From contig NZ_JADEXU010000042.1 in NCBI RefSeq assembly GCF_015206895.1, forward strand, positions 1 to 55,049: a stretch of DNA of 55,049 bases, in the 5' to 3' direction. This DNA is from Nostoc sp. LEGE 12450 (GTDB lineage: Bacteria > Cyanobacteriota > Cyanobacteriia > Cyanobacteriales > Nostocaceae). Positions 12,343-55,049 of the stretch are shown piece by piece. The notes beneath the pieces were generated by a model. The model was not told the DNA's origin and made no database searches. It was given only the letters and a program-made list of their open reading frames with translations. Made by a program: the position numbers and the translations under genes. Within the stretch, counting starts at the first letter, position 1. Each line of letters opens with the position of its first letter.

Positions 12343-12485
12343 CAGTCTCTGTGCGAACTACCGCATAAATGCAGGTGAAAGCGCTTTACGCGATCGCATA
12401 TTTGATAAACAAACGCTGTCACCGATAAAATTCTTATAGCACTTGCATAGATTTTCGAGAAGACCCCAACGCCGAAGTAGAAGAG

Positions 12486-12704: not shown

Positions 12705-12738
12705 GACAATTTCTGGAAAACTCTATCTACTTTCTTAC

Positions 12739-25363: not shown

Positions 25364-25449
25364 AAATGTAGTGAAGCACTACAGCCTCTCAAAAAGGCAT
25401 AGCGCAAACACTTCTGAACCATGAAAACTAAATAATTGCCATCCAACGT

Positions 25450-25525
25450 GGGGGTGTAGCTTAGTCCGGTTTAAAGCAGTCGCCTGTCGAGCGAAAGACC
25501 GTGGGTTCAAATCCCATCATCCCCG
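25450..25525 (+). tRNA. tRNA-Asp(GTC)
   Basis: The acceptor GGGGGTG pairs with CATCCCC; the anticodon loop is CTGTCGA. The discriminator is G and no CCA is encoded. It is the first gene of the array. Confidence 0.9.
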
Positions 25526-25528
25526 TGT

Positions 25529-25605
25529 AGCCTTGTGGACGAATAGATAAGTCGTTCTGATTCTCAGTCAGAGAGAAGCGGGTGCAACTCCCGTCAAGGC
25601 TTCCA
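25529..25605 (+). tRNA. tRNA-Glu(CTC)
   Basis: The acceptor AGCCTTG pairs with CAAGGCT; the anticodon loop TTCTCAG sits in stem TCTGA/TCAGA; CCA is encoded. CTC is an unusual glutamate anticodon for cyanobacteria, which normally use TTC alone. Confidence 0.8.
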
Positions 25606-25608
25606 AAT

Positions 25609-25682
25609 GAGGATGTAGCTCAGTCGGAAAGAGCGCTTGTTTCCGAAGCAAGTGGTCACAGGTTCGATTCCTGTCGTCCTCG
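25609..25682 (+). tRNA. tRNA-Arg(CCG)
   Basis: The acceptor GAGGATG pairs with CGTCCTC (one G-T pair); the loop TTCCGAA lies in stem CTTGT/GCAAG; the T-arm GGTTCGATTCC is canonical. Confidence 0.9.
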
Positions 25683-25688
25683 TAGTAT

Positions 25689-25762
25689 GTCCAGGTCGCC
25701 TAACGGTAGGGTATTGGTCTGCAAAACCGACTGTGCGAGTTCAATTCTCGCCCTGGACTCCA
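25689..25762 (+). tRNA. tRNA-Cys(GCA)
   Basis: GTCCAGG pairs with CCTGGAC; the loop CTGCAAA sits in stem TTGGT/ACCGA (one mismatch-prone pair); CCA is encoded. Confidence 0.88.
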
Positions 25763-25767
25763 AACGT

Positions 25768-25867
25768 TGCAGTGTAGCGATTTACGGCAAAGCCCCAAGC
25801 TCATAACTTGGTATATGCGAGTACCCTTCGGGAACGCTGGCGCGAACGACTCTCGCCACTGCTACCA
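25768..25867 (+). tRNA. tRNA-Met/Ile2(CAT) with an insertion in the T-loop
   Basis: The anticodon loop CTCATAA lies in a perfect stem CCAAG/CTTGG, and TGCAGTG pairs with CACTGCT apart from the first pair, followed by ACCA. The T-stem GCGAG (25817-25821) and CTCGC (25852-25856) are separated by about 30 bases instead of 7. The extra DNA contains CCCTTCGGGAACGCTGGCG, a palindromic repeat type common in Nostoc. The gene may be a pseudogene or need unusual processing. Whether it is elongator Met or lysidine-modified Ile is undecided. Confidence 0.6.
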
Positions 25868-25870
25868 AAT

Positions 25871-25941
25871 GCACAGATGGTGTAATGGTAACACCACAGT
25901 CTCCAAAACTGTTGTTCTGGGTTCAAGTCCTAGTCTGTGCG
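25871..25941 (+). tRNA. tRNA-Trp(CCA)
   Basis: GCACAGA pairs with TCTGTGC; the loop CTCCAAA lies in stem ACAGT/ACTGT; the D-loop is short (AATGGTAA). Confidence 0.88.
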
Positions 25942-25965
25942 TTGCCGTGTCCTGACCGAAAAAGC

Positions 25966-26037
<72 letters not shown>

Positions 26038-26068
26038 CAACAGCTTTTTCAACTTACATGGCATACAT

Positions 26069-26145
26069 GGTGCAGAAGCGAAGTGGCCGAGCGGCACGTC
26101 TTTCAAGCGTGTAATTAGCGGGTTCAAGTCCCGTCTGCACTACCA
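26069..26145 (+). tRNA. tRNA-Glu(TTC)
   Basis: The anticodon loop CTTTCAA lies in stem CACGT/GCGTG. GGTGCAG pairs with CTGCACT (G-T first) followed by ACCA. The T-arm GCGGG-TTCAAGT-CCCGT is canonical. Confidence 0.8.
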
Positions 26146-26151
26146 AATTCA

Positions 26152-26233
26152 TGGGTCGGCTCGCCTACTGGTGTGGGCAACGGTCTGTAAAACCGCCGCG
26201 TTTGCGTTGCTGGTTCAATTCCAGCCCGTCCCA
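26152..26233 (+). tRNA. tRNA-Tyr(GTA)
   Basis: The loop CTGTAAA sits in stem CGGT/ACCG. A long variable arm (CGCGTTTGCG region) is present, as expected for bacterial tRNA-Tyr. One acceptor mismatch is visible. Confidence 0.82.
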
Positions 26234-26237
26234 TTCT

Positions 26238-26325
26238 GGAGAGATTGCTATCGGCAGGGCAAGCTGTTTGCTAAACAGTCGTGGGATTCAGCATCTCACT
26301 GTGGGTTCAACTCCCTCTCTCTCCG
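26238..26325 (+). tRNA. tRNA-Ser(GCT)
   Basis: GGAGAGA pairs with TCTCTCC; the loop TTGCTAA sits in stem GCTGT/ACAGT; a long class II variable arm is present; discriminator G. Confidence 0.88.
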
Positions 26326-26331
26326 CCTTAT

Positions 26332-26405
26332 GAGAACGTGGTGTAACTGGATAACACATCAGTCTACGAAACTGAAGAGTGAAGGTTCAAGTCCTTCCGT
26401 TCTCG
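26332..26405 (+). tRNA. tRNA-Arg(ACG)
   Basis: GAGAACG pairs with CGTTCTC; the loop CTACGAA lies in stem TCAGT/ACTGA. The A34 would be edited to inosine. Confidence 0.9.
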
Positions 26406-26410
26406 CCTTA

Positions 26411-26486
26411 TCCCCTGGTAGCTCAGTTGGTAGTAGCGTCTGTCTGAAGAACAGAAGGTCGTCGGTTCGATTCCGACCTGGGGGAC
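26411..26486 (+). tRNA. tRNA-Phe(GAA)
   Basis: TCCCCTG pairs with TGGGGGA using two G-T pairs; the loop CTGAAGA sits in stem TCTGT/ACAGA; the T-arm TCGGTTCGATTCCGA is canonical. Confidence 0.88.
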
Positions 26487-26494
26487 TGGCACAT

Positions 26495-26569
<75 letters not shown>

Positions 26570-26574
26570 TTTAT

Positions 26575-26648
26575 TGGGAAGTAGGCAAACAGGCAAAGCC
26601 GTCGCACTTTGAATGCGAAGTTTGAGGGTTCGATTCCTTCCTTCCCAG
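26575..26648 (+). tRNA. tRNA-Gln(TTG)
   Basis: TGGGAAG pairs with CTTCCCA; the loop CTTTGAA sits in perfect stem TCGCA/TGCGA; the discriminator is G. Confidence 0.9.
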
Positions 26649-26653
26649 CTTAT

Positions 26654-26731
26654 ACTCCTGTAGCCCAACTGGAAGAGGCGGCTGTCTCAAAAACAGTCTG
26701 TGTACGGGTTCGACTCCCGTCAGGAGTACCA
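26654..26731 (+). tRNA. tRNA-Leu(CAA), short variable loop
   Basis: ACTCCTG pairs with CAGGAGT plus ACCA; the loop CTCAAAA lies in stem GCTGT/ACAGT. The variable region is only a few bases, whereas bacterial tRNA-Leu is normally class II with a long arm. Confidence 0.8.
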
Positions 26732-26736
26732 GATAT

Positions 26737-26813
26737 CGGGATGTAATTCAGTGGTCTAGAAGCCTTGTTTTGGGGACAAGGAGCCGTAGGTTCAAATCCT
26801 ACCATCCCGACCA
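26737..26813 (+). tRNA. tRNA-Pro(TGG)
   Basis: CGGGATG pairs with CATCCCG followed by ACCA; the loop TTTGGGG sits in stem CTTGT/ACAAG. Confidence 0.92.
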
Positions 26814-26816
26814 TTT

Positions 26817-26890
26817 GCCCTTGTGACGAAACTGGCAAACGTGCTGGTCTTAGAAACCAGATTTTGTGGGTTCAACTCCCACCAAGGGTA
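26817..26890 (+). tRNA. tRNA-Leu(TAG), short variable loop
   Basis: GCCCTTG pairs with CAAGGGT; the loop CTTAGAA sits in stem CTGGT/ACCAG. The D-arm (GACGAAACTGGCAAACG) resembles normal tRNA-Leu but the variable loop is about five bases. Confidence 0.85.
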
Positions 26891-26910
26891 CTGGGCATTT
26901 GCCCAACTAT

Positions 26911-26985
26911 ACTCCCGTGGCGAAATTGGTAAACGCTTCCGTTTGAGGGACGGAATTTTTGCAGGTTCAATTCCTGTCGGGAGTA
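26911..26985 (+). tRNA. tRNA-Leu(GAG), short variable loop
   Basis: ACTCCCG pairs with CGGGAGT; the loop TTGAGGG lies in stem TCCGT/ACGGA. The D-arm GGCGAAATTGGTAAACGC is typical of tRNA-Leu; the variable loop is about six bases. Confidence 0.85.
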
Positions 26986-26992
26986 ACAAATT

Positions 26993-27064
26993 GGGTCGTT
27001 GGCAGAGCGGGTATGCAGCCGCCTTTTAAGCGGATTCATCCAGGTTCAACCCCTGGGCGACCCA
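26993..27064 (+). tRNA. tRNA-Lys(TTT)
   Basis: GGGTCGT pairs with GCGACCC (one weak pair); the loop CTTTTAA sits in stem CCGC/GCGG; discriminator A. Confidence 0.9.
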
Positions 27065-27073
27065 TCCAATCTT

Positions 27074-27148
27074 GGGCGTTTGGCAGAACGGTTATGCTCC
27101 TGACTCTTAATCAGGCTGACACAGGTTCGACCCCTGTAGCGCCCACCA
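27074..27148 (+). tRNA. tRNA-Lys(CTT)
   Basis: GGGCGTT pairs with AGCGCCC followed by ACCA; the loop CTCTTAA lies in perfect stem CCTGA/TCAGG. Confidence 0.9.
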
Positions 27149-27154
27149 AAACTT

Positions 27155-27228
27155 ACCCCTGTAACCCAAGTGGAAGAGGTGCCAAACTTAAAATTTGGAA
27201 GTTGCTGGTTCAAATCCAGTCAGGGGTA
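27155..27228 (+). tRNA. tRNA-Leu(TAA), short variable loop
   Basis: ACCCCTG pairs with CAGGGGT; the loop CTTAAAA sits in perfect stem CCAAA/TTTGG. The variable loop is about five bases, which is abnormal for a bacterial tRNA-Leu. Confidence 0.85.
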
Positions 27229-27229
27229 T

Positions 27230-27307
27230 CGCGGAGATAGAGCTATGGTGCGCTCTGGGGTCTCATAAGCCTTCACATACCGGGTTCAAATCCCGGCTCC
27301 GCTACCA
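27230..27307 (+). tRNA. Initiator-like tRNA-Met(CAT)
   Basis: C1 faces T72 as a mismatch, the hallmark of bacterial initiator tRNA, then GCGGAG pairs with CTCCGC and ACCA follows. The loop CTCATAA lies in stem GGGGT/GCCTT, G-rich on the 5' side but with G-T pairs where the initiator usually has three G-C pairs. Confidence 0.8.
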
Positions 27308-27310
27308 AAT

Positions 27311-27384
27311 GCTGGTGTAGCTCAATGTGGCAGAGCAATTGCCTTGTAAGCGATGAGTTGCAGGTTCAACTCCTGTCACCAGCC
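27311..27384 (+). tRNA. tRNA-Thr(TGT)
   Basis: GCTGGTG pairs with CACCAGC; the loop CTTGTAA sits in stem ATTGC/GCGAT. A run of C residues follows the acceptor. Confidence 0.9.
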
Positions 27385-27391
27385 CCCAAAT

Positions 27392-27462
27392 GCGATTGTG
27401 GTGTAATGGCAGCATCAGAGTCTTCCAAACTCACGGTACGAGTTCGAGTCTCGTCAATCGCT
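27392..27462 (+). tRNA. tRNA-Gly(TCC)
   Basis: GCGATTG pairs with CAATCGC; the loop CTTCCAA lies in stem GAGT/ACTC; the T-arm GAGTTCGAGTCTC is canonical. Confidence 0.9.
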
Positions 27463-27467
27463 TTCTT

Positions 27468-27543
27468 AGCCCTGTAACTCAGTTGGGAGAGTGCCTCTCT
27501 TACAAAGAGGAAGTCGCGGGTTCAATCCCTGCCGGGGCTACCA
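27468..27543 (+). tRNA. tRNA-Val(TAC)
   Basis: AGCCCTG pairs with CGGGGCT followed by ACCA; the loop CTTACAA sits in perfect stem CCTCT/AGAGG. Confidence 0.92.
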
Positions 27544-27549
27544 ATTTAT

Positions 27550-27622
27550 GGGAGTGTTGCCTAATGGATAAGGCATCGATCTTCTAAATCGAGCAATGTA
27601 GGTTCGACCCCTACCACTCCTG
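27550..27622 (+). tRNA. tRNA-Arg(TCT)
   Basis: GGGAGTG pairs with CACTCCT (G-T first); the loop CTTCTAA lies in perfect stem TCGAT/ATCGA. Confidence 0.9.
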
Positions 27623-27627
27623 CTCAT

Positions 27628-27701
27628 GGGTTCGTAGCTCTAATTGGGAGAGCGCCTGTTTTGCACACAGGAGGTTGTGAGTTCAAGCCTCACCGAATCC
27701 A
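27628..27701 (+). tRNA. tRNA-Ala(TGC)
   Basis: GGGTTCG pairs with CGAATCC (one G-T pair, third position, which differs from the canonical G3-T70 location check); the loop TTTGCAC sits in stem CCTGT/ACAGG. Confidence 0.9.
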
Positions 27702-27706
27702 CTCTT

Positions 27707-27781
27707 GGTGTCTGAAGCCAAAGCGGTCGCGGCGCTGGTTTGTGGAACCAGTCATAACGGGTTCAAGTCCCGCCAGACACC
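27707..27781 (+). tRNA. tRNA-His(GTG)
   Basis: An extra G at -1 (27707) faces C73, the histidine identity feature. GTGTCTG pairs with CAGACAC; the loop TTGTGGA sits in perfect stem CTGGT/ACCAG. Confidence 0.92.
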
Positions 27782-27789
27782 CCTTATAT

Positions 27790-27872
27790 GGAAGATGCTG
27801 CTCAAGGGAGGGCAACTAGTCTTGAAAACTAGAGCAGGGTAATACCTGGGGGTTCAATTCCTCCATCTTCCG
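27790..27872 (+). tRNA. tRNA-Ser(TGA)
   Basis: GGAAGAT pairs with ATCTTCC; the loop CTTGAAA sits in stem CTAGT/ACTAG; a long variable arm (GCAGGGTAATACCTG) is present. Confidence 0.92.
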
Positions 27873-27876
27873 CCTT

Positions 27877-29286: not shown

Positions 29287-32200
29287 TTAATTGGCTAGCA
29301 ATAGTTGATTTAAAGGTATTGAGCATTCTTGCTTGTCGCCCCAGCATTTACGAGCGATCGCTATTCCCCTGAAGACAGCTTTCAAAACATAGCTTCGGAA
29401 GTGGGAACCAAAACCCGTTTCCTTAATTTCAGCTTGTGTAGCGATCGCCTGCTGTGCCAATTCCTCTAAAGACAATTGCTGCTGATATTTTTGATGAAGT
29501 TGCCAGAGATGCGAACGCTGGTTTTCTGAAAGTAGCGGCCAAACTTCATTAATCTCGGCTTGGCTCACCGCAACTTCTCCCCAGTTAGAAATTTTTAGTA
29601 GTTTTTCAATTACCGCTTCTCTTGGTTGCTGATTTTCAACTGGTAACTCAACCGAGATGCCTGCTCTGGGCGTAGCCATCGCCTGATTTCCTGAGTTATG
29701 AGTGATGACCATTGACTCGACTTCTTCTGTTAGCGTCTGTGTTTTCTGCTTTGCGTACTGCTCTTGTAATGTAGTCAGCGTATTAATTTCGGTTTCTGTA
29801 ACTGCTGACAATTGGCAATTGGGAATTGTTGCAAGTGCAAGGGCCTCTAGTTTTGCTTTGGCGGCTTTTTCTCTGGCTAGGATATCGCGCTCTACCCATG
29901 CCGTGAAAACTTCCTCTCGGCGATCGCTAACGGGAACAGCGCGACCATCGACAAAAACCAGATTCCCCTCATCATCTTTTTGGAAGTCTGGCGCGGCGGC
30001 ACCGTAAATCCAGACTTGGTTGCCTCGTGTTCCCTCTCGCCGCAATCGGGGGAATTTATACCCAGTAAGAGACGCTAGTTTTTGACAGACTTGCATGGGA
30101 GTATTTAGAAGAGCAAACATATTACTCTTAGCGCCAAGAATTAAGCTCAAATCGGACTGATGAGTTTTTGCTTTCTCAAATACTGCTTGTGCTAATGGGT
30201 GATTGTTGCTCAATCCGTCCGTTTCTCGAAGCTCTTTGTACCCAATCCAGTCTAAAGCATCAATTTTTTTCCCAATAAAGCTTTTATTAGTATCAGGAAT
30301 GAAATAATCTCCACCGCCATTTTTTAAAGCGGTAGACATGACGTTTATTTCTCTATCCGGTAGAAATTCCCTACCCACGCCAAGGTAGTAATCTAGTCGA
30401 ATTATAGAATACCAGTTTTTATCATCTTTCTCTACTAATTCGGGAGTAACGGTCACGTTATAACGCCTTTCAATCTCACCTTTTCTGTGTTTTAACTGTT
30501 CGGACTCAGTTTTGCAATTCTGTTTATCTAGTTTCAAAAACTGTTCATCTGTAATGCTTTCAGATGCGGTGACGTTTTCACAGTGTCCCGCATATTCTGA
30601 TTTGCAGTTTTTGTAAATTTCTTGCTTAGTAGTTTCTACTTCTGCGGGTTCAGGTAACTCATCTGCGCCCACTTCACAGATGATATGTCCCTCAGATTTC
30701 AAATCACTAATAATTTGCGATTCATAGCTATTCATCCCATCATTGATGATTGCCCCTAACTTCGCCCAAGTATTAATGCAAATGCTCTCAAAATTGCCTT
30801 CTATCGATTCCTCAAATCCCAAATCAACGAGCTTTTTAATATTGGCTTTATTCTTGATGTACTCACCTGCTAGTAATGCCTTGACACTATTGGAGCCATT
30901 GCCTACCCTATTGATGCCTACTGGATTAAGCCAGATGTAACGAGGGACTGGAGGGCGGTAACGTGATAAATGCTGTCTGACACCATCGGTAGTTTGTACG
31001 CCTTGAAAAATCCCAAAAACATAATCAAAATGCTTTTCTTCAATTGATACCCCAGTCTCAATGGTCGAGGTAGTTAGAACGAGGTCATAGTTTTTAATTA
31101 CCTCATTTAAATCATCTGTACAGCCAAAAGCCGGATGACCAAGGGTAGTTGTACTTTTAGAATCAATTCGTAAAATTCTCAGATGTGGCAGAAGTTTTTT
31201 ATAGTACGCCTCCAAATTGCGAGAACCCCATTTAGAACTAGCCCGTTGTCCAGACAAAGCAACAAAGCACTTATCCCCATTCTCTAGTTTTTGGGTCAGG
31301 ATTTTTACTAATTGTGCTGGATTATTACCCTGTACTAAATTTACCTGCCAAGGCTCTACAAACTTAAATGTGTTTTCCACGAGAAAAGTGTCAATCTCTT
31401 GCCCGATCAGCCCTTTGATAAAGTCAATACCAATATCGTTTAAGTCAGCATCGGCTATGAAGATTTTCCCACCATAATTAACAACATTTTGTAGCAGGCG
31501 TTTGAAATTTTTGATGATGGCTACGCGATCGGTCTGACAAGTCGAACTGCTCAACAAATGCCAGATTAGCTGCATGATTTCATCCAAAATCAACCAGCAG
31601 CCTTTCCACTCATCAGGGTTAAATTTGGCTTGGCTTTTTGGATGTAAGCTATCAATTACTAACCCCATTCCGAAATGTGAGCCTTGCTCAGTCTGCTTCA
31701 CTTCGGTAATGAAAGGTAATCCCAGTTTTTTTACAAGCTGGGTTGCCAGTTGCACCCGATGGGTAATTACTAACACTCTCCTCTCACCAGCGCGAATTAT
31801 CGGGTCAGTTAGCCACTGAAGCAAGTGAGTTTTACCTGTGTTCTTTGGCGATTTCAAGCCTATTAGCTGCTTACCCAAAGGAATAGCCAACTCACCCAAG
31901 TAACGCTGATTTAAGTTCAAATCTGGGGTGTATGTGAGCCGCCTTAGTTGCTTGGTGTTCCACTCATCTAATTTCAGAGCATCGCAGTAAATAGTATCAA
32001 ATTGGTCGCGGCCGTAAGCGGCTAGTACATCATCAATTCCTTTGCCTAATGCCAAATGCCACCCCATTACTCGGACTTCACAACCACGCAAAGATAAAAG
32101 CTTGGCAGTTTTAGCGATCGCACCATTCACGCTTCTAACCGTGGTGCGCTTTACATCGGCATCGAAACAGAAATAAATTCGCCTGCCTGATTGAGCATAA

Positions 32201-33132
32201 GTGGCTAACTGTGGGATTAGGTACGGTGCGCCGTTATTTTCGCCGTATTCATCCTTTGGTTGGCGACGGCCTCCCCATACTCCGGGTATACCAATGGCGA
32301 CATAACCACAAGATAAGATTGCAGCTGCTTTTTTAGCACCCTCGCAGATGATAACGGGAATTTGGGTATTCTCTCTCACCCATCGCCAAAAATCACCAAA
32401 AGGTAAACTTTGGTAATTTTCTGGTAGTGCCACATCGTAGCGGCGGCTAATTAATTCCCAGATCCGGGCGGGAATCCGTAAGGCAAAAATTTCTGTGTCA
32501 ACTTTGGGGGGATGCTCATACTTAATTGCCTTGCTGTTACCCTCATCTATTCTTGGCGTGTTGGGCTTGAAGCATCCCCAATCGGAATCTTCACCAGTGA
32601 TAATATTTATTCCGCTACACCACCAACCACCATTAGAGAGGTGAGCATATCGCCGCATATCCCCATCGCGTAGCCGCCCATCGTTGCGGCGGCTGATTTT
32701 ATCGGAGTAGAGCAAGTAATCAAAAGCGGCATTCCCTGACAGCGATTTGAAGTTAAGTGCCGCTATCTCACTGTCAATCCCACTCTCACCCCACTCTTGC
32801 CAGTGGCTTGCTTCAAAATCTTCTCTGGCTGGCAAAGTATAAGGTGCGGATGGCTCTTTGAATCCTTGATAATTACCCAGTGCTTGAATTTCGCTATCAT
32901 GGTGATGGCTACGCCCAGAGCAGGCATCGCCTTGCGCCATGTCATTTTGGTTGTCGGCTACAACAACTTGATGGACTTTTCCATCTCTGGACTCAAGTCT
33001 TGAGACTTCATGCAAAGCCCAAGGGGTACTTCTGAGCTTACCTCGCTTGTTGAATTTTCTAAAAACCTGCCTTAGTTCTTGATTTAGTGATTTTTGGGGT
33101 GAGGCTATCTTGCCGAATCCTTTGTGATTCAT
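29287..33132 (-). CDS. CyRepA1-family plasmid replication protein
   Basis: The 1281-residue protein has a DUF3854/TOPRIM-like domain (IPVIICEGAKKAAAIL...IGIPGVWGG at 258-288 and RIYFCFDADVKR at 318-328). A helicase-like P-loop domain follows (SPKNTGKT at 428-435, Walker B WLILDEI at 513-519, later TTSTIETGVSIEEKHFDYVFG and QHLSRYRP). This primase-plus-helicase layout defines the cyanobacterial CyRepA1 replication proteins. A long C-terminal half includes a conserved YFIPDTNKSFIGKKIDALDWIGYKELR region. It would start and drive plasmid replication. A small upstream gene overlaps its ATG. Confidence 0.9.
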   Translation of the reverse strand: MNHKGFGKIASPQKSLNQELRQVFRKFNKRGKLRSTPWALHEVSRLESRDGKVHQVVVADNQNDMAQGDACSGRSHHHDSEIQALGNYQGFKEPSAPYTLPAREDFEASHWQEWGESGIDSEIAALNFKSLSGNAAFDYLLYSDKISRRNDGRLRDGDMRRYAHLSNGGWWCSGINIITGEDSDWGCFKPNTPRIDEGNSKAIKYEHPPKVDTEIFALRIPARIWELISRRYDVALPENYQSLPFGDFWRWVRENTQIPVIICEGAKKAAAILSCGYVAIGIPGVWGGRRQPKDEYGENNGAPYLIPQLATYAQSGRRIYFCFDADVKRTTVRSVNGAIAKTAKLLSLRGCEVRVMGWHLALGKGIDDVLAAYGRDQFDTIYCDALKLDEWNTKQLRRLTYTPDLNLNQRYLGELAIPLGKQLIGLKSPKNTGKTHLLQWLTDPIIRAGERRVLVITHRVQLATQLVKKLGLPFITEVKQTEQGSHFGMGLVIDSLHPKSQAKFNPDEWKGCWLILDEIMQLIWHLLSSSTCQTDRVAIIKNFKRLLQNVVNYGGKIFIADADLNDIGIDFIKGLIGQEIDTFLVENTFKFVEPWQVNLVQGNNPAQLVKILTQKLENGDKCFVALSGQRASSKWGSRNLEAYYKKLLPHLRILRIDSKSTTTLGHPAFGCTDDLNEVIKNYDLVLTTSTIETGVSIEEKHFDYVFGIFQGVQTTDGVRQHLSRYRPPVPRYIWLNPVGINRVGNGSNSVKALLAGEYIKNKANIKKLVDLGFEESIEGNFESICINTWAKLGAIINDGMNSYESQIISDLKSEGHIICEVGADELPEPAEVETTKQEIYKNCKSEYAGHCENVTASESITDEQFLKLDKQNCKTESEQLKHRKGEIERRYNVTVTPELVEKDDKNWYSIIRLDYYLGVGREFLPDREINVMSTALKNGGGDYFIPDTNKSFIGKKIDALDWIGYKELRETDGLSNNHPLAQAVFEKAKTHQSDLSLILGAKSNMFALLNTPMQVCQKLASLTGYKFPRLRREGTRGNQVWIYGAAAPDFQKDDEGNLVFVDGRAVPVSDRREEVFTAWVERDILAREKAAKAKLEALALATIPNCQLSAVTETEINTLTTLQEQYAKQKTQTLTEEVESMVITHNSGNQAMATPRAGISVELPVENQQPREAVIEKLLKISNWGEVAVSQAEINEVWPLLSENQRSHLWQLHQKYQQQLSLEELAQQAIATQAEIKETGFGSHFRSYVLKAVFRGIAIARKCWGDKQECSIPLNQLLLAN

Positions 33133-37643: not shown

Positions 37644-37832
37644 ATGGACGAACTAAATAGTCAAATTGAGAATGCAAAGACGGATGAGAAAGAGCTAAAC
37701 AAAGTCCTGAAGAAATATGACTTAGATGAGGAATTAGCACTTGAGTTTAGCGAAATAGACAAGGCATTTAGGCAATTAGAAATTAAGTACCAATCCCTAC
37801 TAAACACTAGAAAATTTTTGAACAATGGCTAA
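37644..37832 (+). CDS. Small coiled-coil protein (62 aa)
   Basis: The highly charged coiled coil starts at the ATG at 37644 (MDELNSQIENAKTDEKELNKV). Its end overlaps the start of the gene at 37825 by 8 bases, implying coupled translation. Confidence 0.6.
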   Translation: MDELNSQIENAKTDEKELNKVLKKYDLDEELALEFSEIDKAFRQLEIKYQSLLNTRKFLNNG

Positions 37833-38499
37833 AATCGACACTACAAAAGCAGCGGCTCAAGCTGTAGCAGAAAAGCTGGCAAGAGGTAAAGTCAACTCAC
37901 CATCTAGCACTAACTCCGTATCTGCTACACCTACCACATCTACTGCCATTCCTATAGATAGCCGTATTCCTGGATTGTTGACCGTCACGCCGGATTTAAT
38001 ACCTGGAATGATGCCACCATTCCAGGCGAATCATTATCATATTTCAGATCCACTTAATCCTCCTGAAACTCTCCCACAGGCAAGCCAAAGTCAGCTAGAT
38101 ATTGGGATGAAAATCTATGAAGGCTCTACACGGGCGCTCAAATTGACGGGAGCAGCGCTCGACCTGACACGCGAAAAATTCACTGTTATTGGTAAACACT
38201 CAAAGGCTTTTGGTGCTGGCATCCAAGCCGCTACCGAGATTGAGAAAGTCAAAGGGAATTATTTAGATTACCTTAATCAAAAAGAAGTAACTACCCAAAA
38301 ATCAGTTGTTTTAGATGTCAACCAAGTGAAGACGGTTGCCGATACAAGCATTTCCGTTCATAGCAAAGACGAACTAAATCAAAAACTGTTGCAAGCCTCC
38401 ATTAAAGCTGAGGAATCACGGCTAAAAACTGTTGAATCTCAAGGGAAATTATCAAGCTTTAAGGCACAGTTAGGCGATTATATAGAGGTGAAGCAATGA
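37825..38499 (+). CDS. Hypothetical partner of the P-loop protein
   Basis: The 224-residue product has a Thr/Ser/Pro-rich N-terminal segment (about 25-100), a helical middle (LDIGMKIYEGSTRALKLTGAALDLTREKFTVIGKHSKAF) and a charged C-terminus. It overlaps the next gene's ATG by 4 bases. No family recognised; a tight pairing with the large ATPase is likely. Confidence 0.6.
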   Translation: MAKIDTTKAAAQAVAEKLARGKVNSPSSTNSVSATPTTSTAIPIDSRIPGLLTVTPDLIPGMMPPFQANHYHISDPLNPPETLPQASQSQLDIGMKIYEGSTRALKLTGAALDLTREKFTVIGKHSKAFGAGIQAATEIEKVKGNYLDYLNQKEVTTQKSVVLDVNQVKTVADTSISVHSKDELNQKLLQASIKAEESRLKTVESQGKLSSFKAQLGDYIEVKQ

Positions 38500-40667
38500 A
38501 AGCAATACATGGGTTAGGACTTGGTGTATTTGGCTTCTGTACCGGCTTGGCATTTGCTTCTGGAGGGTTTCCAAACGATACAGCCAAACTAATCTCTATG
38601 CTTGGTATAGGGGCGTTGCCAGCAAGTTTTATTACTTATCTAGTCGCGGATACTAAATCACAAAGACTATTAACCCATGCCGAAAGTAAGAATGAACAAG
38701 CAGGTCAAACGCTGCATAAAATCATCAGGGATTTTGAAAGGAGCAAGTCAAGGTTAGCCACTGTTAGTAGCCAGCTAGAATCTTTGAAAGATGAACTCAA
38801 AGAAGCGAGAAATACCATCAACTCGTTAGGTCATAACAAACTAGAAAGCACAGCAATAATAGCTCAACTGCAAGCCAAGTTAAATCAATTATCTACACAG
38901 ACTCAAAAAGATACCCAGCGTATTGAATATCTGGAAAGTGAGACTGAGCAATGGGAATTGAACTTTAAAACTCAAGTAGAAGCGGAGGCTAACAAACGCT
39001 TTCAACTTGCCAAGTCACAGGAATTAGAAAAGATTTATCATGAACACGATTCTATTACCTCTGAAGCTATGGAGCTATTCAGAAGGTTGCAAAACTGGGG
39101 TGAGAAGGTAGCGCATGGTCATCAAAGTAAAGCCGAGATTATCAAGAGTTTGGCAAGTAGCTACAACGAAAATTTAGATGAGGTTGGGGAAGCGATCACT
39201 AGTGAGCGCCAAAATTATCTTTTGCAAATCGAATTACTAAACGAGCGTATAGGTCAGCTACAGCAACAATTGCTTGGTGATTTAATAGAACCCGTGTATG
39301 GTGAATTTGGCTTTGATATCAACGGGAAAATCGCCAACGAAATAGCGCGTACCTTGTTTACTGATATCAGTCTGGCTTTGAACGTTAAAGGCTTCCAGGT
39401 TAAGCCTGACAGCGTTGTAGATGTAGGTTATGGCTATTCCCGGTCTGTGCATCCCAAAGCCATCGTGGAGGCTATCAGCAAGCATTCTGACACGCTGGCT
39501 AAAAAGTTAGGACTATTCAAAATAACAAGCGTTCGCAAGCTGGAAATAACCGATTGTATTGTGGTCAGTTACCGTATGGGCCCAGCCATCAAAACAGATG
39601 AAATTAAGCTGATGGTTGGGACTCCTGACGAATTTATAAACTACGTCACTTCTCACCCTATCCGCTATCGGCTGATTGCAGATCCGGGCGTTGGTAAAAC
39701 CCCAACCACTGCGGTAATGATTAGCGAAATCCTCAAAGCTGGTTGTACTCGTGGCAATACTGGCAAGGGCGAGAAAGTGCCTAATACTCTGGTTACAGTG
39801 TCTTATCCTGGTGCTGTTGCTTCACTCAAAGATAGCAACTATCCTTTAGAGCATTTCCTTAAGTATGGCGACACAACAGCCGCGATTAAATCCTTTGATG
39901 ATTGCCTAGACGACGGAAATTTTCGAGTTCAAAACCCCACATTCGCTGCTAACTTCTTTCAAATTTGGGCATGGGATGAATTAGATAACACCCTAAATTC
40001 TTGCAGTGAGCCATACAAGGCAGGGGAAAACCTCAAGAAGATTCTGAAACAGTTTGGTCATAATAACATCGGCTGGATTGTGTCTGGTCAATCAGTGATG
40101 ACCAAACAAATCCCAGGTTTTACTAATGATGATCGGTCACTCTTTACCGAAATAATCATTGGCATTCCCAAAATCAGACATTACCTGAATACCTACGGCA
40201 AGGGGAAAAACAGCGAGTCTAACTTGGCTAAGTTGATTCGGAACTTAGACGCAATTGAAGAATACATCAACCATAAAAATGAGTTAGTTACCGATGATGC
40301 GAGATTATTAAGAGTAGCCTTAGTAGTCGATTCTCGCTCACCCAAACTTTATTTTTTACCTAATTTAGATAAAGTCAGTTTTAACTATCAAGAAATAGAG
40401 GATACAAAGCGACTGGCAAGGGTTGCCAAGTCCCCTGACACGAATGACACGAGATTGACAAGGGATACTTTAAAGCCAAGCACAGTAAGCACTGACACGG
40501 TGATGTCAGTCGCGTCATTTCCGACTATAGGGGGTAGCCGCCAAAGTGACACAAAGCCTTATTGTCCCCACTGTGGTCACGCAAATCTAACCGTGAGAAA
40601 GGATAAAAGATATTACTGTTTGAACTGCAAAAAAATAACAGTTTCTAACAAAATAGTTTGGAAATAA
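38496..40667 (+). CDS. Membrane-anchored coiled-coil P-loop ATPase with zinc ribbon
   Basis: Of the 723 residues, two hydrophobic segments (about 5-25 and 35-52) anchor the N-terminus. A long coiled coil spans about 60-280. A P-loop, ADPGVGKT, lies near residue 400, with an IWAWDELDN Walker B-like strand near 490 and QFGHNNIGWIVSGQS following it. The C-terminus is a zinc ribbon, YCPHCGHANL...YYCLNCKK. I cannot name the family. It resembles membrane-linked ATPases of conjugation or phage-like machines but lacks their diagnostic sequences. It ends 5 bases before the next gene. Confidence 0.7.
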   Translation: MKAIHGLGLGVFGFCTGLAFASGGFPNDTAKLISMLGIGALPASFITYLVADTKSQRLLTHAESKNEQAGQTLHKIIRDFERSKSRLATVSSQLESLKDELKEARNTINSLGHNKLESTAIIAQLQAKLNQLSTQTQKDTQRIEYLESETEQWELNFKTQVEAEANKRFQLAKSQELEKIYHEHDSITSEAMELFRRLQNWGEKVAHGHQSKAEIIKSLASSYNENLDEVGEAITSERQNYLLQIELLNERIGQLQQQLLGDLIEPVYGEFGFDINGKIANEIARTLFTDISLALNVKGFQVKPDSVVDVGYGYSRSVHPKAIVEAISKHSDTLAKKLGLFKITSVRKLEITDCIVVSYRMGPAIKTDEIKLMVGTPDEFINYVTSHPIRYRLIADPGVGKTPTTAVMISEILKAGCTRGNTGKGEKVPNTLVTVSYPGAVASLKDSNYPLEHFLKYGDTTAAIKSFDDCLDDGNFRVQNPTFAANFFQIWAWDELDNTLNSCSEPYKAGENLKKILKQFGHNNIGWIVSGQSVMTKQIPGFTNDDRSLFTEIIIGIPKIRHYLNTYGKGKNSESNLAKLIRNLDAIEEYINHKNELVTDDARLLRVALVVDSRSPKLYFLPNLDKVSFNYQEIEDTKRLARVAKSPDTNDTRLTRDTLKPSTVSTDTVMSVASFPTIGGSRQSDTKPYCPHCGHANLTVRKDKRYYCLNCKKITVSNKIVWK

Positions 40668-40671
40668 ATAT

Positions 40672-41169
40672 ATGGACTTGGATGATATTACGACACTTAT
40701 CTATCAGCCTAAAAATGACCATGAGCCGGGATTTATCTATTTAATGGAAGCAGAGGGCTATCACGGGCTAATTCCTGGTTGTTACCTCCGTCGTTGCAAA
40801 ATTGGGTTATCTCGTAATCCCGAAGCTCGACTTGATAGCTTTCATAGGAATCAACCACCTTGTAACGTGAAAATCCTCAAGACTATTTATGTAGAGGATA
40901 TGGCAGATGTAGAGGGTGAATTACATCAACAATTTAGCCAATGCAATGTTGAGTTAATCAAAAGTCAAGAGTGGTTTGATTTTAATCCAGTGCAATTTCT
41001 GATGGTTAACTGGGAATTTGAGAAGCGATCACTACACGTCTTTAGCATTAGCGACTTGCCAATTAAGCTAATCATTTTCAGCATGATCGGGCTTGTGGGA
41101 GTGGGAACCGTAGCGGGAAGATTAACAAGTCAGTCACCAATGCAGCCGCAAAAACAATTAGCTAAGTAA
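40672..41169 (+). CDS. GIY-YIG (T5orf172-like) protein with membrane tail
   Basis: The first 120 residues show the GIY-YIG pattern typical of T5orf172-type proteins: GFIYLMEAEGY, CKIGLSRNPEARLDSFHRNQPPCNVKIL, DVEGELHQQF and SQEWFDF. A hydrophobic helix follows (IKLIIFSMIGLVGVGTVAGRL, about 137-157). A membrane-tethered nuclease is unusual and fits a partnership with the membrane ATPase just upstream. Confidence 0.8.
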   Translation: MDLDDITTLIYQPKNDHEPGFIYLMEAEGYHGLIPGCYLRRCKIGLSRNPEARLDSFHRNQPPCNVKILKTIYVEDMADVEGELHQQFSQCNVELIKSQEWFDFNPVQFLMVNWEFEKRSLHVFSISDLPIKLIIFSMIGLVGVGTVAGRLTSQSPMQPQKQLAK

Positions 41170-41438: not shown

Positions 41439-41497
41439 GAGAATACCTTTTATTTTTTAAGCGCGGGTTATCAGCCCGCTTTTTCTGTGGTTTTTTC

Positions 41498-41610
41498 AAC
41501 CTGTTATTAGCATAGCTAACCTGTTATATAATGTCAATAACCTGTTAAAAATATCTCACAGGTTATTGACATCGGCTAACTTGTTAGTTAAATTAATAAC
41601 AGCTTAGAAA
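41498..41610 (+). promoter_or_regulatory. Repeat-rich promoter region of the telomere resolvase gene
   Basis: It contains three direct AACCTGTTA copies, a 14-bp perfect inverted repeat (TGTCAATAACCTGT at 41532-41545 and ACAGGTTATTGACA at 41558-41571) and TTGTTAGTTAAATTAATAAC, which resembles the core of the terminal palindrome. This suggests that the resolvase or a partner binds here and controls the gene. The ribosome-binding site GGGGAG is about 10 bases before the ATG. Confidence 0.6.
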
Positions 41611-41628
41611 TAAAGGGGAGTCAGTCAG

Positions 41629-43485
41629 ATGTCTAAAGCAGTTCAGGAACAAGTAGATCAACTCTTTGTTGCGGTCAAAGATTTGCAAAGCCTTGAAGAG
41701 ATCAAGCCACACTGTGAGAAGTTCAACGAGTGGATAAATACCAACACTAACTACAGCATTAAAAGCTTAGGCACTGTGCTGAGTCGGTCTGGCTTCTATA
41801 AAAAATTCAAGTCACTGCCATTAGAGCAAGGGAAAAACGCTGATTCTGTTCCCAAGCATGATGCCCAAGGCAACGTAACAGGTTATGAGTTAAAGCACTA
41901 TGTTTTATTGCTGTGTGGTCTAGACAAAAGCCATTGGGAAGAAAGAAACAAGTCTACACGGGTAAGCGATCGCCTCGAAAATGGTCAGGAAATCAGCCCA
42001 GATGAATATCTAGAGGTAACAGGTAAGCTGCTAGAATCCCAAGATTTGCATGAAGTAGCAGTGGGCTTAATTGCTGCCACTGGCCGCCGCCCCCATGAAG
42101 TTTTAGCCCGTGCTAAGTTTGCGGCTGTTGAGGGTCAAAGCTATCAGGTAATGTTCACTGGTCAAGGTAAAAAACGGGGAGATAAGCCAGTATTCCCCAT
42201 CGCTACCCTCTACCCTGCTAGTTACGTCATTGAGCGATTGAACTGGTTAAGAAAGGAGCCAACAACTAAAGCACTCTTGGCAGAGGTGGCTAACGAGAAT
42301 CCTACAGACCTTTCAGCCCAAAACCGTGCTATTGATAGTCGCCGCAACGGTTCACTTAATCGAGTAGTTCGTGGTTATTTTGGGGACAAGGGAGATAAAA
42401 CCCCAATTCTGAATTTTCGACACGGAGAAGAACAAGACAACTGCAAAGCACTCCGGGCCGCATATTTAGCACTGGCTACCGAGCGCGATTGTACTGGGGC
42501 GATGGGTTCTAAGATGCTACACGCCGCTAGGCTAGCTGGCCACTTTGTTAAGGACGCTCCCACTGACCGAGACTTACAAAATCTTGTAACCACTTTGGGG
42601 TATGCCGACTATTACCTTACAAAGCCTGTAGGTTTCCCGGATGCTCCGTCAAAAGAAAAACTTTCAAATGTTCGGGTTAGTTCAAGAGATTTAGAAGCTA
42701 TTCGTCACCTGCAAGAGGAATTAAATTTACCCAATCAGCAATCAGCTATTACCTACTTGCTTGAGTCATTTAACAATCGATTGGACACTGCAAAGCAATT
42801 ACAGTCAGCACAGCAGAGAGTTGCCCAATTAGAAACAGAGATTAAAGAGTTACGCCAAAGTAATAACCAGTTAGAAGACATCAATAACCAACTGGATATA
42901 ACTAACAAACAATTGACAAAGGAGAAAGCAGCAATGGAAACCACAGCACAGCAACCCCAGACAGTTACTCTAAATGTCACCGAGTTAGATTCTTGGCTAG
43001 AACAGAAAATTGTTGAGGTGGTGGACAAGTTAACTCAAAATGTGGCTATAGCACCTGCTACTACTGCCACAGTTGCCAAGGTAACACCCATCAAAGAAGA
43101 GATTGACTGGCAAGCCAAGACTGATGCTGAGGTCTGGGGGAGCAAAGCACCGGGGGCAGGTATAGAGAAAATCCGTCGGTCTTATCAGGCTATATGTCTG
43201 TACAACAATACCGTGGCAACTCTTGACTCAGATCGCTTGGCTGTGACTAACCAAGCACTCAGGGATTTATCAGGCTGTAACGGTTTGCTGATCAGAGATT
43301 GGATTGAACAGCACAAGGATGAGGTGATTAGCCATAATGCTAAGTTCGGTATGGAAAACAAGAAAGACCCCAGTAATCCAGCCAGCTATGCTAACAAGGG
43401 CAAGGATACAGATAAAATTCTGTTGCTGATAAATGAAGAATTTTTAAGTGGTGAAGGCTTTAAGACAGGGACTAAAGCCAAATGA
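41629..43485 (+). CDS. Telomere resolvase (protelomerase) family protein
   Basis: This 618-residue protein carries a divergent tyrosine-recombinase core. The key arginine lies in LIAATGRRPHEVLARAKF (Arg153/154), as in phage and Borrelia resolvases (TGRRxxEI). It is followed by FTGQGKKRGD (Lys181/182), HGEEQDNCKALRAAYLALA (Arg276, replacing HxxR), His305 in LAGHF and the nucleophile Tyr325 in TTLGYADYYL. A coiled coil spans about 385-440 and a separate C-terminal domain follows. Such enzymes cut a palindrome in replicated DNA and rejoin each strand to itself, giving hairpin telomeres. Together with the terminal palindrome it is the key gene of this window. Catalytic alignment is by eye. Confidence 0.85.
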   Translation: MSKAVQEQVDQLFVAVKDLQSLEEIKPHCEKFNEWINTNTNYSIKSLGTVLSRSGFYKKFKSLPLEQGKNADSVPKHDAQGNVTGYELKHYVLLLCGLDKSHWEERNKSTRVSDRLENGQEISPDEYLEVTGKLLESQDLHEVAVGLIAATGRRPHEVLARAKFAAVEGQSYQVMFTGQGKKRGDKPVFPIATLYPASYVIERLNWLRKEPTTKALLAEVANENPTDLSAQNRAIDSRRNGSLNRVVRGYFGDKGDKTPILNFRHGEEQDNCKALRAAYLALATERDCTGAMGSKMLHAARLAGHFVKDAPTDRDLQNLVTTLGYADYYLTKPVGFPDAPSKEKLSNVRVSSRDLEAIRHLQEELNLPNQQSAITYLLESFNNRLDTAKQLQSAQQRVAQLETEIKELRQSNNQLEDINNQLDITNKQLTKEKAAMETTAQQPQTVTLNVTELDSWLEQKIVEVVDKLTQNVAIAPATTATVAKVTPIKEEIDWQAKTDAEVWGSKAPGAGIEKIRRSYQAICLYNNTVATLDSDRLAVTNQALRDLSGCNGLLIRDWIEQHKDEVISHNAKFGMENKKDPSNPASYANKGKDTDKILLLINEEFLSGEGFKTGTKAK

Positions 43486-44603: not shown

Positions 44604-46046
44604 ATGTGGATTTATTTGTTACGGATTTATTTGTTGCTTACAAAATTTAGCGAGCGGATCAAATCCTTATTTCCAATTCTAAGAATTATTATGTGGTTTG
44701 TTATTCCATTGGTAGCAATAATAATTTTTGCAAAACTTTATCCTTTTAAGGAAATAGGTGGATGGACTGGTATTGGAGAAGATTCAAATAAATCAAAAAC
44801 GCTAGAAGCGGAATTTAATCCTAAGACAAAAGAAATTATTAAAATAACGTATAAAGATACTGAAAATTTTCAATCAGCTAAGACCTTATGGGATTGGTCA
44901 GGTTTAGTTGCAACAATCGCAATTCCTTTTGCATTGTTTTATTTTGAACGAAGAGAACAAAGACGATCTGAAAAGCAGGCAGATACAGAGAAAAAAATAG
45001 CTGATAATAATTTACGTGAGCAAGCTGTAGAAGCTTATATTGACCGAATGTCAGAACTGCTGATTGATAAAAAGCTAAAAGTATTAATTAGCAAAGAATT
45101 AACAAAATCTGAATCAGACAAAGACGAATATGTTGTACTAGATGCCGCACTTGATATAGCTCGCGCAAGAACATTATCGATACTACGAAGATTGGAGCAA
45201 GATACTGTAAAAATAAAAAGCGTTATTAAATTTTTATCGGACGCTGAACTATTAGATAAGAAGATTCTAAGCGGTACAGACCTAAGTAATGTCAACCTTA
45301 GCGGGACCAATCTCAGTGGTGCCGACCTTACCGATGCCGACCTTAGGCGTGCCGACCTTAGGCGTGCCGACCTTAGGCGTGCCGACCTTAGGCGTGCCGA
45401 CTGCAGCGGTGCCTATTTTGGGCGTGCCGACCTCAGGTGTGCTGATCTCAGCGGTGCCATCCTCAGGGATGCCTACCTCAGCAGTGCCGACCTCAACGAT
45501 GCTAACCTCAGTGGTGCCGGACTCAGAAGTGCCGACCTCAGCCATGCCTTTTTCGGGCGTGCCAACCTCAGAGGTGCCGACCTCAGCGGTGCCGACCTCA
45601 GCGGTGCTATCCTCAGTGATGCCGACCTCAGCGGTGCCGACCTCAGCAAAGCCAACCTTGTAACTGCTTACCTCAGCAGAGCCAACCTCAGCAGCACCAA
45701 CCTCATCAATGCCAACCTCAGCAGCACCAACCTCAGCAGTGCCAACCTTGTGACTGCTTATCTTCCCGAAGCCAAACTCATAGGTGCTAACCTCAGCAGT
45801 GCTAACCTCAGCAGTGCCGACCTCAGAAGTGCCGACCTCAGAAGTGCCGACCTCAGCAATGCCAACCTCAGCGATGCCGACCTCAGAGGTGCCGACTTCG
45901 TAAATACTGAACTTGAAGGTGCCAAACTCGAAGGTGCCAAAAACCTAACTTCTGAGCAAGTTAAAAAAGCTAAGAACTGGGAGAACGGAATATACAACAA
46001 AGAGTTTCGTGTCCAGTTAGGTTTGTCACCAGAACCTATTAAGTAA
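44604..46046 (+). CDS. Membrane pentapeptide-repeat protein
   Basis: The 480-residue protein has two N-terminal membrane segments (about 2-16 and 27-46) and a third near 95-112 ([16 protein letters not shown]). A helical stretch follows (about 115-225), then about 40 pentapeptide units A(D/N)LSx (residues 228-445). The DNA is accordingly made of near-perfect 15-bp units (CGTGCCGACCTTAGG and similar). Its architecture resembles the ion-channel-like pentapeptide proteins of cyanobacteria, but no function is known. The ATG at 44604 has no strong SD; a nearby ATG is at 44594 in another frame. Confidence 0.85.
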
Positions 46047-48660: not shown

Positions 48661-48762
48661 GCTAGCTATGCCAATAAAGGAAAGGACACAGATAAAATTC
48701 TGTTGGCTTCAAATGAAGAGTTGCTTAGTGGTGAAGGCTACCGCAAGGCTAAATCTCAATAG
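48661..48762 (+). pseudogene. 3' fragment of a second telomere resolvase gene
   Basis: The frame reads ASYANKGKDTDKILLASNEE, then LLSGEGYRKAKSQ and a stop. It aligns with the last 35 residues of the protein at 41629 (SYANKGKDTDKILLLINEEF, then LSGEGFKTGTKAK), with about 75 percent identity over the core. Nothing upstream continues the homology. It is the decayed end of a second resolvase copy. Confidence 0.85.
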
Positions 48763-50136: not shown

Positions 50137-51374
50137 TATTTTTTGCTGTCAAAAATTCTTCGATTAAAGAATAAAATAAACGTACCCACTACGCTTATTT
50201 TGGGTAACTTCAATTTCAGCCATTTTTGGATGGCTTTTGAAGCGAAAAAATGAAAATTTGGGATAAAAAATTATTTTAGCAGTGTTAGGTGGGATGGTTG
50301 ACGCGATTGCAATCAGCTAAAATTGACTACTCAAAAACGACAAAAGAACGACAAAAGCGGATCAAGTTTCACAGATGGAATGACAACGCCCATTCACCCA
50401 ATCCCTAATCTCCAATGTCTAATAGGGCCGCCAGGGGAGTAGAGCGTAGGATGACTACGGGCATCGCCTCTTCCCCAACACGCAATGCCCAATGCCCAAT
50501 GGCGAATGCGTTCGAGCTAGAGGCGAGAGAGTCAGCATTGGGGGAATAGGAGCCGGTGGCGATCGCTTCGGGAATTAAGCATAGGGCGAAGAAGGTGGTT
50601 CGGCTAGCAAGAACCGCAGGCATCGCGGCCATTCATTGTCTAAGGCATTCTTCTAACTACTGCTGGGAGCAAAATCAAGAGCGGTGGGTTTAAGGTCTGA
50701 AGGGGTTCGGTTATGCGATCGCGCTGTTGTCATGCCAAACTTGCGGCTTCTTTTGTAGCCGGGGACTTAGACCCGCCGAAGTTTGTTAAAGAAACAAAAT
50801 CCACAAAAAAAAATTTACCCCTGTTTTTGACCCTTTTTTTGTCTATCTAATTGATAATTACTCTCAATATTAACCGCCCAAACCCTGATTATTGACATAT
50901 TTATCAAGAAATATTACAGTTTTGGCACTAGTTTATTGATTCGACTAAATTCGTGCATCTGATAGAAAAGCTCGACAAAACATCCATTTTCCCAATTCTC
51001 ACCAACTACATTCAACATCTCCCAATATCTAGACAATATCTTCCAAATCTCCAATTTTTTCTTACCTTTTTACCACTTAAAAATCATCCAGTTACAAAAT
51101 TCTCATTAGCTCAAAAATTCCCAATAAATCCGAACAGTTCCCAAGACTTCTGAGAAGTCTGCCATTTTGTCCCAATAATTGGTCAATTATTGGGAAATTC
51201 GCTTAAAAGCTTTTAAGCCCTGGAATCCATCTTTTTCTGACGCACAGTACGCCATATTTGGCGGAAAGTTTTTGACAGCCAAAATTGAAAAGCAGAAGCA
51301 GAAGTAAGAGCCATCAATAAATACTACGAAATAACTACACAATCACGACAAAAGCCACCGATGCACAAGCCTTG
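50137..51374. other. Long gene-poor stretch
   Basis: No gene supported. It contains interspersed repeats (about 50440-50640, 50710-50760), AT-rich DNA, AGACTTC-TGA-GAAGTCT at 51144-51160 and CCCAATAATTG-GT-CAATTATTGGG at 51171-51194, both perfect inverted repeats. Confidence 0.45.
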
Positions 51375-54730: not shown

Positions 54731-54923
54731 TCTGTTAACATATTCTGGACGTTCTAACTGGTTATGGTGTCTTGGAGATAACTTAACAGTTACGCGAGAA
54801 TACTGTTATATTCTGAAGGCGACGAAATAACCAATGGCTAAAACATAGTTATAGAAAGACTTTCAGGCGCTGACTAAGCCTAACAGCTTGGTGCAGACAT
54901 GAACTGGTTATAGAATTCAGGCA
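54731..54923 (+). repeat. Subterminal motif cluster
   Basis: TCTGTTAAC, GTTCTAACTGGTTA (54751), AACAGTTA, CTGTTATA and GACATGAACTGGTTATAG (54897) repeat the words of the terminal palindrome (GTTCTAACCAGTTA, CTGTTAATTT). They are candidate resolvase-binding sites. Confidence 0.6.
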
Positions 54924-55049
54924 ATGCAGATATCAGATGTTCTAACCAGTTAATGCAGACATATATCTCTACTTGTCTGTTAATTTAAATTAACAGACAA
55001 GTAGAGATATATGTCTGCATTAACTGGTTAGAACATCTGATATCTGCAT
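54924..55049. repeat. Perfect 126-bp palindrome at the end: candidate hairpin telomere
   Basis: The left arm, 54924-54986, and the right arm, 54987-55049, are exact reverse complements (63 bases each, centre between 54986 and 54987, centre sequence TTAATTTAAATTAA). The palindrome ends exactly at the window edge. This is what one gets by reading around a covalently closed hairpin. If so, the true DNA end is at 54986. An assembly fold-back is the alternative. Confidence 0.8.

Follow-up and report, generated by a model that had tools for sequence, protein, structure and literature searches.

The window considered here, which is the whole stretch of 55,049 nucleotides from Nostoc sp. LEGE 12450 (NZ_JADEXU010000042.1) and at the same time the entire contig C309 of that assembly, very probably belongs to a linear plasmid whose two ends are both covalently closed hairpins, and most likely represents the right-hand part of this plasmid. 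The contig ends at an exact palindrome, which would most likely be the product of the assembly rounding one hairpin tip onto the other strand. The host genome has a size of 8.8 Mb, and the closest named matches of the window are Nostoc plasmids. A linear cyanobacterial plasmid with a hairpin telomere had been proposed in an earlier note made from the sequence alone, and this proposal is supported by the recurrence of the same tip in independent assemblies and by a gene of the telomere resolvase (protelomerase) family on the same contig. We infer covalent closure for the window molecule's own end. The features of the contig ends are as follows.

54924..55049, no strand: exact terminal palindrome, with its axis between 54986 and 54987 as the predicted hairpin tip
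54987..55049, within the terminal palindrome: bases past 54986, reading as the opposite strand of the same arm
54976..54997, no strand: conserved tip core, TCTGTTAATTT continued across the axis by AAATTAACAGA, with the central hexamer TTTAAA
50336..54986, plus strand: terminal inverted repeat common to the left arm, 4651 nt from 50336 to the tip, with 50336-50462 equal to the last 127 bases of contig C148
1..127, plus strand: left contig end, a repeat branch point and no telomere, exactly matching the ends of contigs C201, C197 and C78

The claim that the last 126 bases form an exact palindrome was borne out, since 54924-55049 is its own reverse complement with arms of 63 and 63 nt and no spacer. 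Every other perfect palindrome in the window has arms of 9 nt at most, so a chance origin is excluded. At the window start and at the end of C148, the contigs overlap by 127 bases (the final 127 bases of C148 are identical to window 50336-50462, and no 128-mers are in common), which points to a de Bruijn assembly at k=127. A graph of this kind would halt 63 nt beyond a fold-back axis and thus give 2 × 63 = 126 bases, indicating that the length of 126 nt was set by the assembler, marks a fold-back and carries no biological meaning. The fold-back tip of the earlier note is supported, and the true inverted copy would extend past the 126-nt palindrome.

For the other end, where the note had suggested searching for a second palindrome, the left contig end turned out to be a repeat branch, and the left arm was found through C148, collapsed into the window copy. 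The left arm of the linear plasmid pNsp_d (Nostoc sp. ATCC 53789) matches C148 (12,940 bp) of the window's own genome with 99.7% identity over 5,762 bp, and C148 ends at window 50336-50462, so that the left arm runs into the window's terminal repeat 4,651 nt short of the tip. Both plasmid ends would thus share an inverted repeat no shorter than 4.65 kb, collapsed to one copy in the assembly. Because of this collapse, no second telomere copy was found in the own genome, either by blastn or by a 16-mer search with 1 mismatch. Fold-back at both ends, as expected of a hairpin replicon, is seen on the right in the window, is deduced from the collapsed copy for the left tip, and is seen at both ends in relatives.

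In 14 genomes of the family, the window genome included, the tip TCYGTTAATTT/AAATTAACRGA lies at the end of a contig or on a fold axis. Its inner 16-mer GTTAATTTAAATTAAC occurs at 27 places in 19 of 217 family genomes; at 16 of these places the axis lies at most 75 nt from a contig end, and at 23 the arms exceed the 16-mer pattern. TCYG precedes the 16-mer at 22 of the 27 places (the same 14 genomes), and 15 of these full tips are terminal on their contig, the other 7 forming fold axes in a contig interior (G422:C3 with an arm of 748; G462:C170 with an arm of 4658; G491:C234 with an arm of 3942, at the exact midpoint of a 7,884-bp contig; and two apiece in G490:C8 and C9, with arms of 21-444). 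On five contigs, each of the two ends folds back. A reversed control pattern was found at 25 places in 23 of 217 family genomes, with arms of 8-10 nt and 0/25 within 500 nt of a contig end; the genome count of the bare 16-mer (19/217) is not above that of the control (23/217), and it is position, arm length and association with the resolvase alone that separate the two. With the stricter 22-mer, 9 places were found in 6 of 388 genomes of the order (2 of them from another family), all 9 at most 75 nt from a contig end, while the reversed 22-mer was found in 0/388; G481 was among the sampled genomes and was missed since its record reaches only 9-10 nt beyond the axis.

In the tip consensus, TC at -11 and -10 was observed in 17/17 clusters and does not stem from the search pattern, whereas the invariance of GTTAATTT is partly by construction, because most rows were found with it. 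The consensus left out G441, G456, G522 and G540 (bare 16-mers), G461:C14, AP018302, AP018305 and L026/KVJ20. Its rows are partly non-independent, several pairs of equal length being likely the same molecules (G395:C9/AP018215; G481:C5/CP046707; G490:C8 and C9/CP040279 and CP040280; G467:C76/L030; G475:C174/L028; G483:C169/L046). In G461:C14 (L086 1-28), a 28-nt palindrome on the same 16-mer stands at the extreme end of a 127-kb contig and has neither TCYG nor boxes.

The recurrence of the tip bears on the explanation that the palindrome is an artefact, folded back at an arbitrary site during library preparation or assembly. Such chimeras exist, and locus L026 (Nostoc sp. KVJ20 contig_7) ends at 12476-12815 in an imperfect palindrome of 340 nt that lacks the tip core and may be an artefact or another end type. 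However, in 14 genomes the assembly folds back on one motif, at one and the same base, against 0/25 for the control, and the terminal placement of the 22-mer (9/9, with the reversed pattern absent) agrees with this, so that an arbitrary-site artefact is already refuted and retains next to no probability.

The second line of evidence for a hairpin-capped plasmid is the resolvase gene, which ends 11.4 kb from the palindrome, as the earlier note had stated.

41629..43485, plus strand: predicted telomere resolvase (protelomerase family), 618 aa, matching Pfam PF16684 with E=1.1e-28 and 100.5 bits against a cut-off of 27
Within this protein: candidate catalytic residues R154, K181/K182, K273, R276, H305 and Y325

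By sequence and predicted fold, this protein is a resolvase of the ResT/TelK/TelA type, homologous to these in the catalytic domain. With the active-site set of TelA as reference (R255, K286, Y363, R366, H394 and Y405), residues R154, K181, K182, R276 and H305 were invariant across 78 resolvase sequences. Y325 and Y328 are both invariant, and Y325 is preferred as candidate nucleophile by where the structural alignment ends (333 to TelA 413); the spacing from H to Y is 20 instead of 11. A 79-nt piece of the resolvase 3' end (43381-43459) recurs 5.3 kb downstream at 48661-48739 with 81% identity, and the left inverted end of pNsp_d has next to it 645 nt from the 3' half of the resolvase gene. 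The scan of IMG/VR with the window resolvase gave no relative, and a phage collection gave 3 weak matches, 2 of which are the same Vibrio phage.

PF16684 is present in 76/217 family genomes. It was found in 17/19 tip genomes compared with 59/198 others (p=4e-7), and in 5/23 genomes with the control pattern compared with 71/194 others (p=0.17), the genomes being treated as independent and counted by hand in both tests. Tip and resolvase lie on one contig in 13/14 full-tip genomes, the exception being G491. These counts argue against a real hairpin that is formed or processed by something besides the encoded resolvase, which would then have another role. For that alternative speak some carriers of PF16684 without a visible hairpin end, and the 59 family genomes with PF16684 and no tip 16-mer; against it also stand the same boxes flanking both the tip and the resolvase start, and a second resolvase class with a tip of its own, and we regard it as highly unlikely.

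The boxes shared by the telomere and the region upstream of the resolvase gene are the following.

54755..54986, plus strand: subtelomere with AACNNGTT boxes at 54756, 54902 and 54944, predicted resolvase-binding sites
Within 54755..54986, plus strand: GCAGAYAT boxes at 54893, 54926 and 54955, predicted resolvase-binding sites
41493..41628, plus strand: resolvase upstream region with four AACNNGTT boxes at 41498, 41518, 41539 and 41578

Near the tip, 3 AACNNGTT boxes were found in the preceding 287 bp compared with 0.09 expected, and near the resolvase start 4 in the preceding 228 bp compared with 0.07 expected. The box at 41578 lies within the 17-nt spacer of a promoter-like TTGACA/TAAATT pair (about 41566-41594). 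In all 9 long-resolvase plasmids, 1-4 boxes were observed in the 220 bp upstream of the gene (background 0.07-0.34), and in 5/9 a box is inside the spacer of a TTGACA/TA...T promoter-like pair. As the boxes of the tip are also present within the promoter region of the resolvase gene, autorepression by the resolvase is predicted, and the promoter boxes would be the means of this self-regulation.

Among the relatives, pNsp_d (NZ_CP046707, 65,222 bp, linear) has 5.1-kb inverted ends that both run 9-10 nt past the axis, whereas the records of pNPM10 and pNPM8 end exactly at the axis. pNPM9 is circular in PLSDB and linear in its paper, and its inverted ends meet at the record junction. In pC052_H (44,291 bp), axes are found at 14179 and 38103 with halves made unequal by assembly gaps, and it looks like a dumbbell that was read through. 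In the Fischerella NIES-4106 plasmids AP018302 (L057) and AP018305 (L058), both labelled circular, near-perfect inverted repeats of 2832 and 1491 nt meet at the junction and there is no class-A core; they are probably linear with an unfinished or different tip. Locus L042, a resolvase locus, ends 2 nt before the axis.

Several observations weigh against the hairpin-capped plasmid. The graph cannot tell two hairpin ends from a circle with one perfect palindrome of ~9.3 kb, an ambiguity that arises for the window plasmid because both arms use one repeat copy. Some relatives do not fit: AP025026 and CP117767 have resolvase genes but lack inverted ends, and their records are given as circular, and for p057_I, whose resolvase is 99.8% identical, the tip motif was absent in the 90 of 158.8 kb examined. 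A contig-end palindrome was found at 4/25 resolvase loci (3 with the tip core), the rest ending elsewhere or having bounded flanks, and 4/27 tip matches are bare 16-mers at chance level.

Among distant resolvase contigs of the phylum, a survey that left out G027 and G036, no palindrome scoring at least 14 was found in the whole of G005:C11 and G215:C47 or in partial stretches of G296:C54, G296:C79, G127:C6, G072:C29, G042:C12, G167:C2, G135:C3, G280:C1 and G278:C104; G293:C48 has one internal palindrome with 14-nt arms.

The circle allowed by the graph, in which the arms would face each other across 54986 and resemble a replicated telomere before resolution, gains some support from the window and C148 joining the same repeat copy and from CP026691, AP018302 and AP018305, which bear the label circular and have inverted repeats that abut where the record closes. 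In AP018215, the strongest case, however, the two ends differ, and past each axis 0 mismatches were found to its own arm (73 and 49 nt) compared with 6 and 5 to the arm of the other end; each end thus folds onto its own copy, indicating that this is not a circular junction, which would give the opposite. Of the five contigs that fold back at both ends, a further point against a circle, the three others tested (G078:C53, G467:C76 and G493:C99) have identical ends, so that the comparison of own and other arm is undiscriminating there. Perfect palindromes of kilobase size are also unstable in circular DNA. For published Nostoc plasmids, PMC5987646 (2018) based hairpins on palindromic reads, a drop in coverage and no mate pairs spanning the putative palindromes. 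Overall, a circular window plasmid is considered improbable, and a linear plasmid with hairpin ends is the reading followed below. The mark left by short reads, which at k=127 is a palindrome of 2 × 63 nt closing the contig, offers a way to spot linear replicons in public assemblies and would correct records labelled circular.

Among bacteria, hairpin telomeres are well understood in Borrelia, in Agrobacterium and in a handful of phages, and what is known of TelA, ResT and TelN suggests the following course for the plasmid. Replication would begin internally and round both hairpins to give a circular head-to-head dimer, after which a dimer of the plasmid's own resolvase would bind the boxes flanking the palindromic tip. 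The resolvase would cut 6 bp apart around the centre of TTTAAA through a 3'-phosphotyrosine, with Y325 as candidate, and each strand would be refolded to a hairpin, releasing two linear plasmids. Through the boxes in its promoter region, the resolvase may in addition repress its own gene. The GC-skew sign of an internal origin was not used, since the cumulative minimum of the window (~38.1 kb) is not significant (block shuffling p=0.13); the minimum is also non-significant in AP018302 (p=0.49), CP046707 (0.053) and pNsp_f (0.097), and significant in AP018215, AP018305, CP026683 and pNPM8.

A different end palindrome was found on contigs carrying a shorter resolvase (~346 aa), namely on either end of G078:C59 (19-nt arms that reach the edge), in G484:C117 (arm of 84 to the edge) and in G476:C106 (arm of 38, stopping 9 nt from the edge), and the right end of the linear pNsp_f halts near the axis of the same short-class tip AGTCCTTGBTWNCATWCCTTGTTCTC. 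In total, 3/16 short-resolvase contigs examined (11/16 in part) have a contig-end palindrome, plus pNsp_f; the 22-mer of this tip occurs in 1/386 genomes of the phylum, where it stands at each end of G078:C59. At the centre of the tip, the hexamer reads either TCATGA or TCTAGA, the former being also that of Agrobacterium according to PMC3558466. Upstream of the short resolvases, TTGAC...TCCTTRKTTACTAT was observed in 12/17, which is the tip box inside a promoter-like pair; in 3/17 the box has no -35 match and in 2/17 the start was not located. The structural model of the short class (35 sequences, pLDDT 84) also gave matches at E<=0.001 to TelA, TelK and ResT only (8/8).

Judged from sequence, each resolvase class has its own putative box both at the tip and upstream of its gene. 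We see an even chance that filamentous cyanobacteria hold at least two separate hairpin-telomere modules, one pairing a long resolvase (~600 aa) with TAACNNGTTA boxes and the tip TTTAAA, the other pairing a short resolvase (~346 aa) with an AGTCCTTG box and the tip TCTAGA or TCATGA, that each resolvase silences its own promoter via the telomere box and so makes and counts ends, and that hairpin replicons are common and overlooked. Hairpin-ended linear replicons would be common in cyanobacterial genomes because about a third of the family genomes (the 76/217 given above) carry such a resolvase gene. Predicted hairpin telomeres recur across genera of filamentous cyanobacteria, with resolvase, tip and boxes legible from sequence, and the pairs of enzymes and sites make resolvase specificity and self-regulation testable.

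Other features of the window include the following.

29287..33132, minus strand: plasmid replication gene by homology, with a DUF3854 domain; the collinear gene of pNsp_d is annotated as CyRepA1 family
37825..41169, plus strand: three genes ahead of the resolvase, of 224 aa, 723 aa and 165 aa, the last with T5orf172/MUG113 matches

In related linear plasmids, the same gene order is found ahead of the resolvase, with the last gene annotated as a GIY-YIG nuclease. An array of 28 predicted tRNA genes, one called tRNA-Pyl(cta), lies at 25449-27874, and 24 tRNA genes are given for pNPM8 of Nostoc N6 in PMC5987646. The segments 7408-8757 and 19340-20689 form an inverted pair of about 1.35 kb with 84% identity, perhaps copies of a mobile element. 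A pentapeptide-repeat protein (44604-46046) is encoded by a run of 15-nt repeats, and on visual inspection the reading frame at the left end of the contig seems to resemble it. Among the 10 window proteins searched, no Pfam match to phage structural genes was found.

As far as the accessible parts of the sources go, cyanobacteria are named in passing among bacteria with hairpin telomeres in PMC3558466, and three linear Nostoc plasmids with inverted ends and AAATTAACRGAC at each end were described in PMC5987646, the main text of which lacks the words 'telomer', 'resolvase' and 'protelomerase' in the same parts; in PMC7118181, pNsp_d is announced as linear, and the portion available contains none of the words telomer, hairpin and inverted. 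The window plasmid is therefore a further case of a known kind, since Nostoc plasmids with hairpin ends and the same end motif had already been reported in 2018 (PMC5987646). In the open-licence literature, no earlier report was found of the link to the resolvase, of telomere boxes in the resolvase promoter, or of a second class with a shorter resolvase, and these three points are added here.

Like pNsp_d, with which it is collinear from window 1944 to 54996, the window has the same tip, and the last 3.4 kb are 98% identical. With pNPM8, pNPM9 and pNPM10 of Nostoc sp. N6, whose hairpins were deduced from reads, it shares inverted terminal repeats and the end motif, as window 54987-54998 reads AAATTAACAGAC and contains the AAATTAACRGAC of the plasmid ends in PMC5987646. 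The pNPM8 resolvase is 90% identical to that of the window over 99% of its length, but the window plasmid is a different element, and the last ~100 bases are unlike apart from the core. The window system resembles TelA of Agrobacterium and TelK of phage phiKO2 in catalytic-domain sequence, predicted fold and a palindromic tip, while the identity to ResT of Borrelia is low (17-18%). By spacing, K273-x-x-R276 would correspond to the Y363-x-x-R366 pair of TelA. Compared with TelA, the predicted model has a long helix (370-439) and an extra helical region beyond most TelA alignments, and the tip hexamer is TTTAAA instead of the TCATGA of the TelA system.
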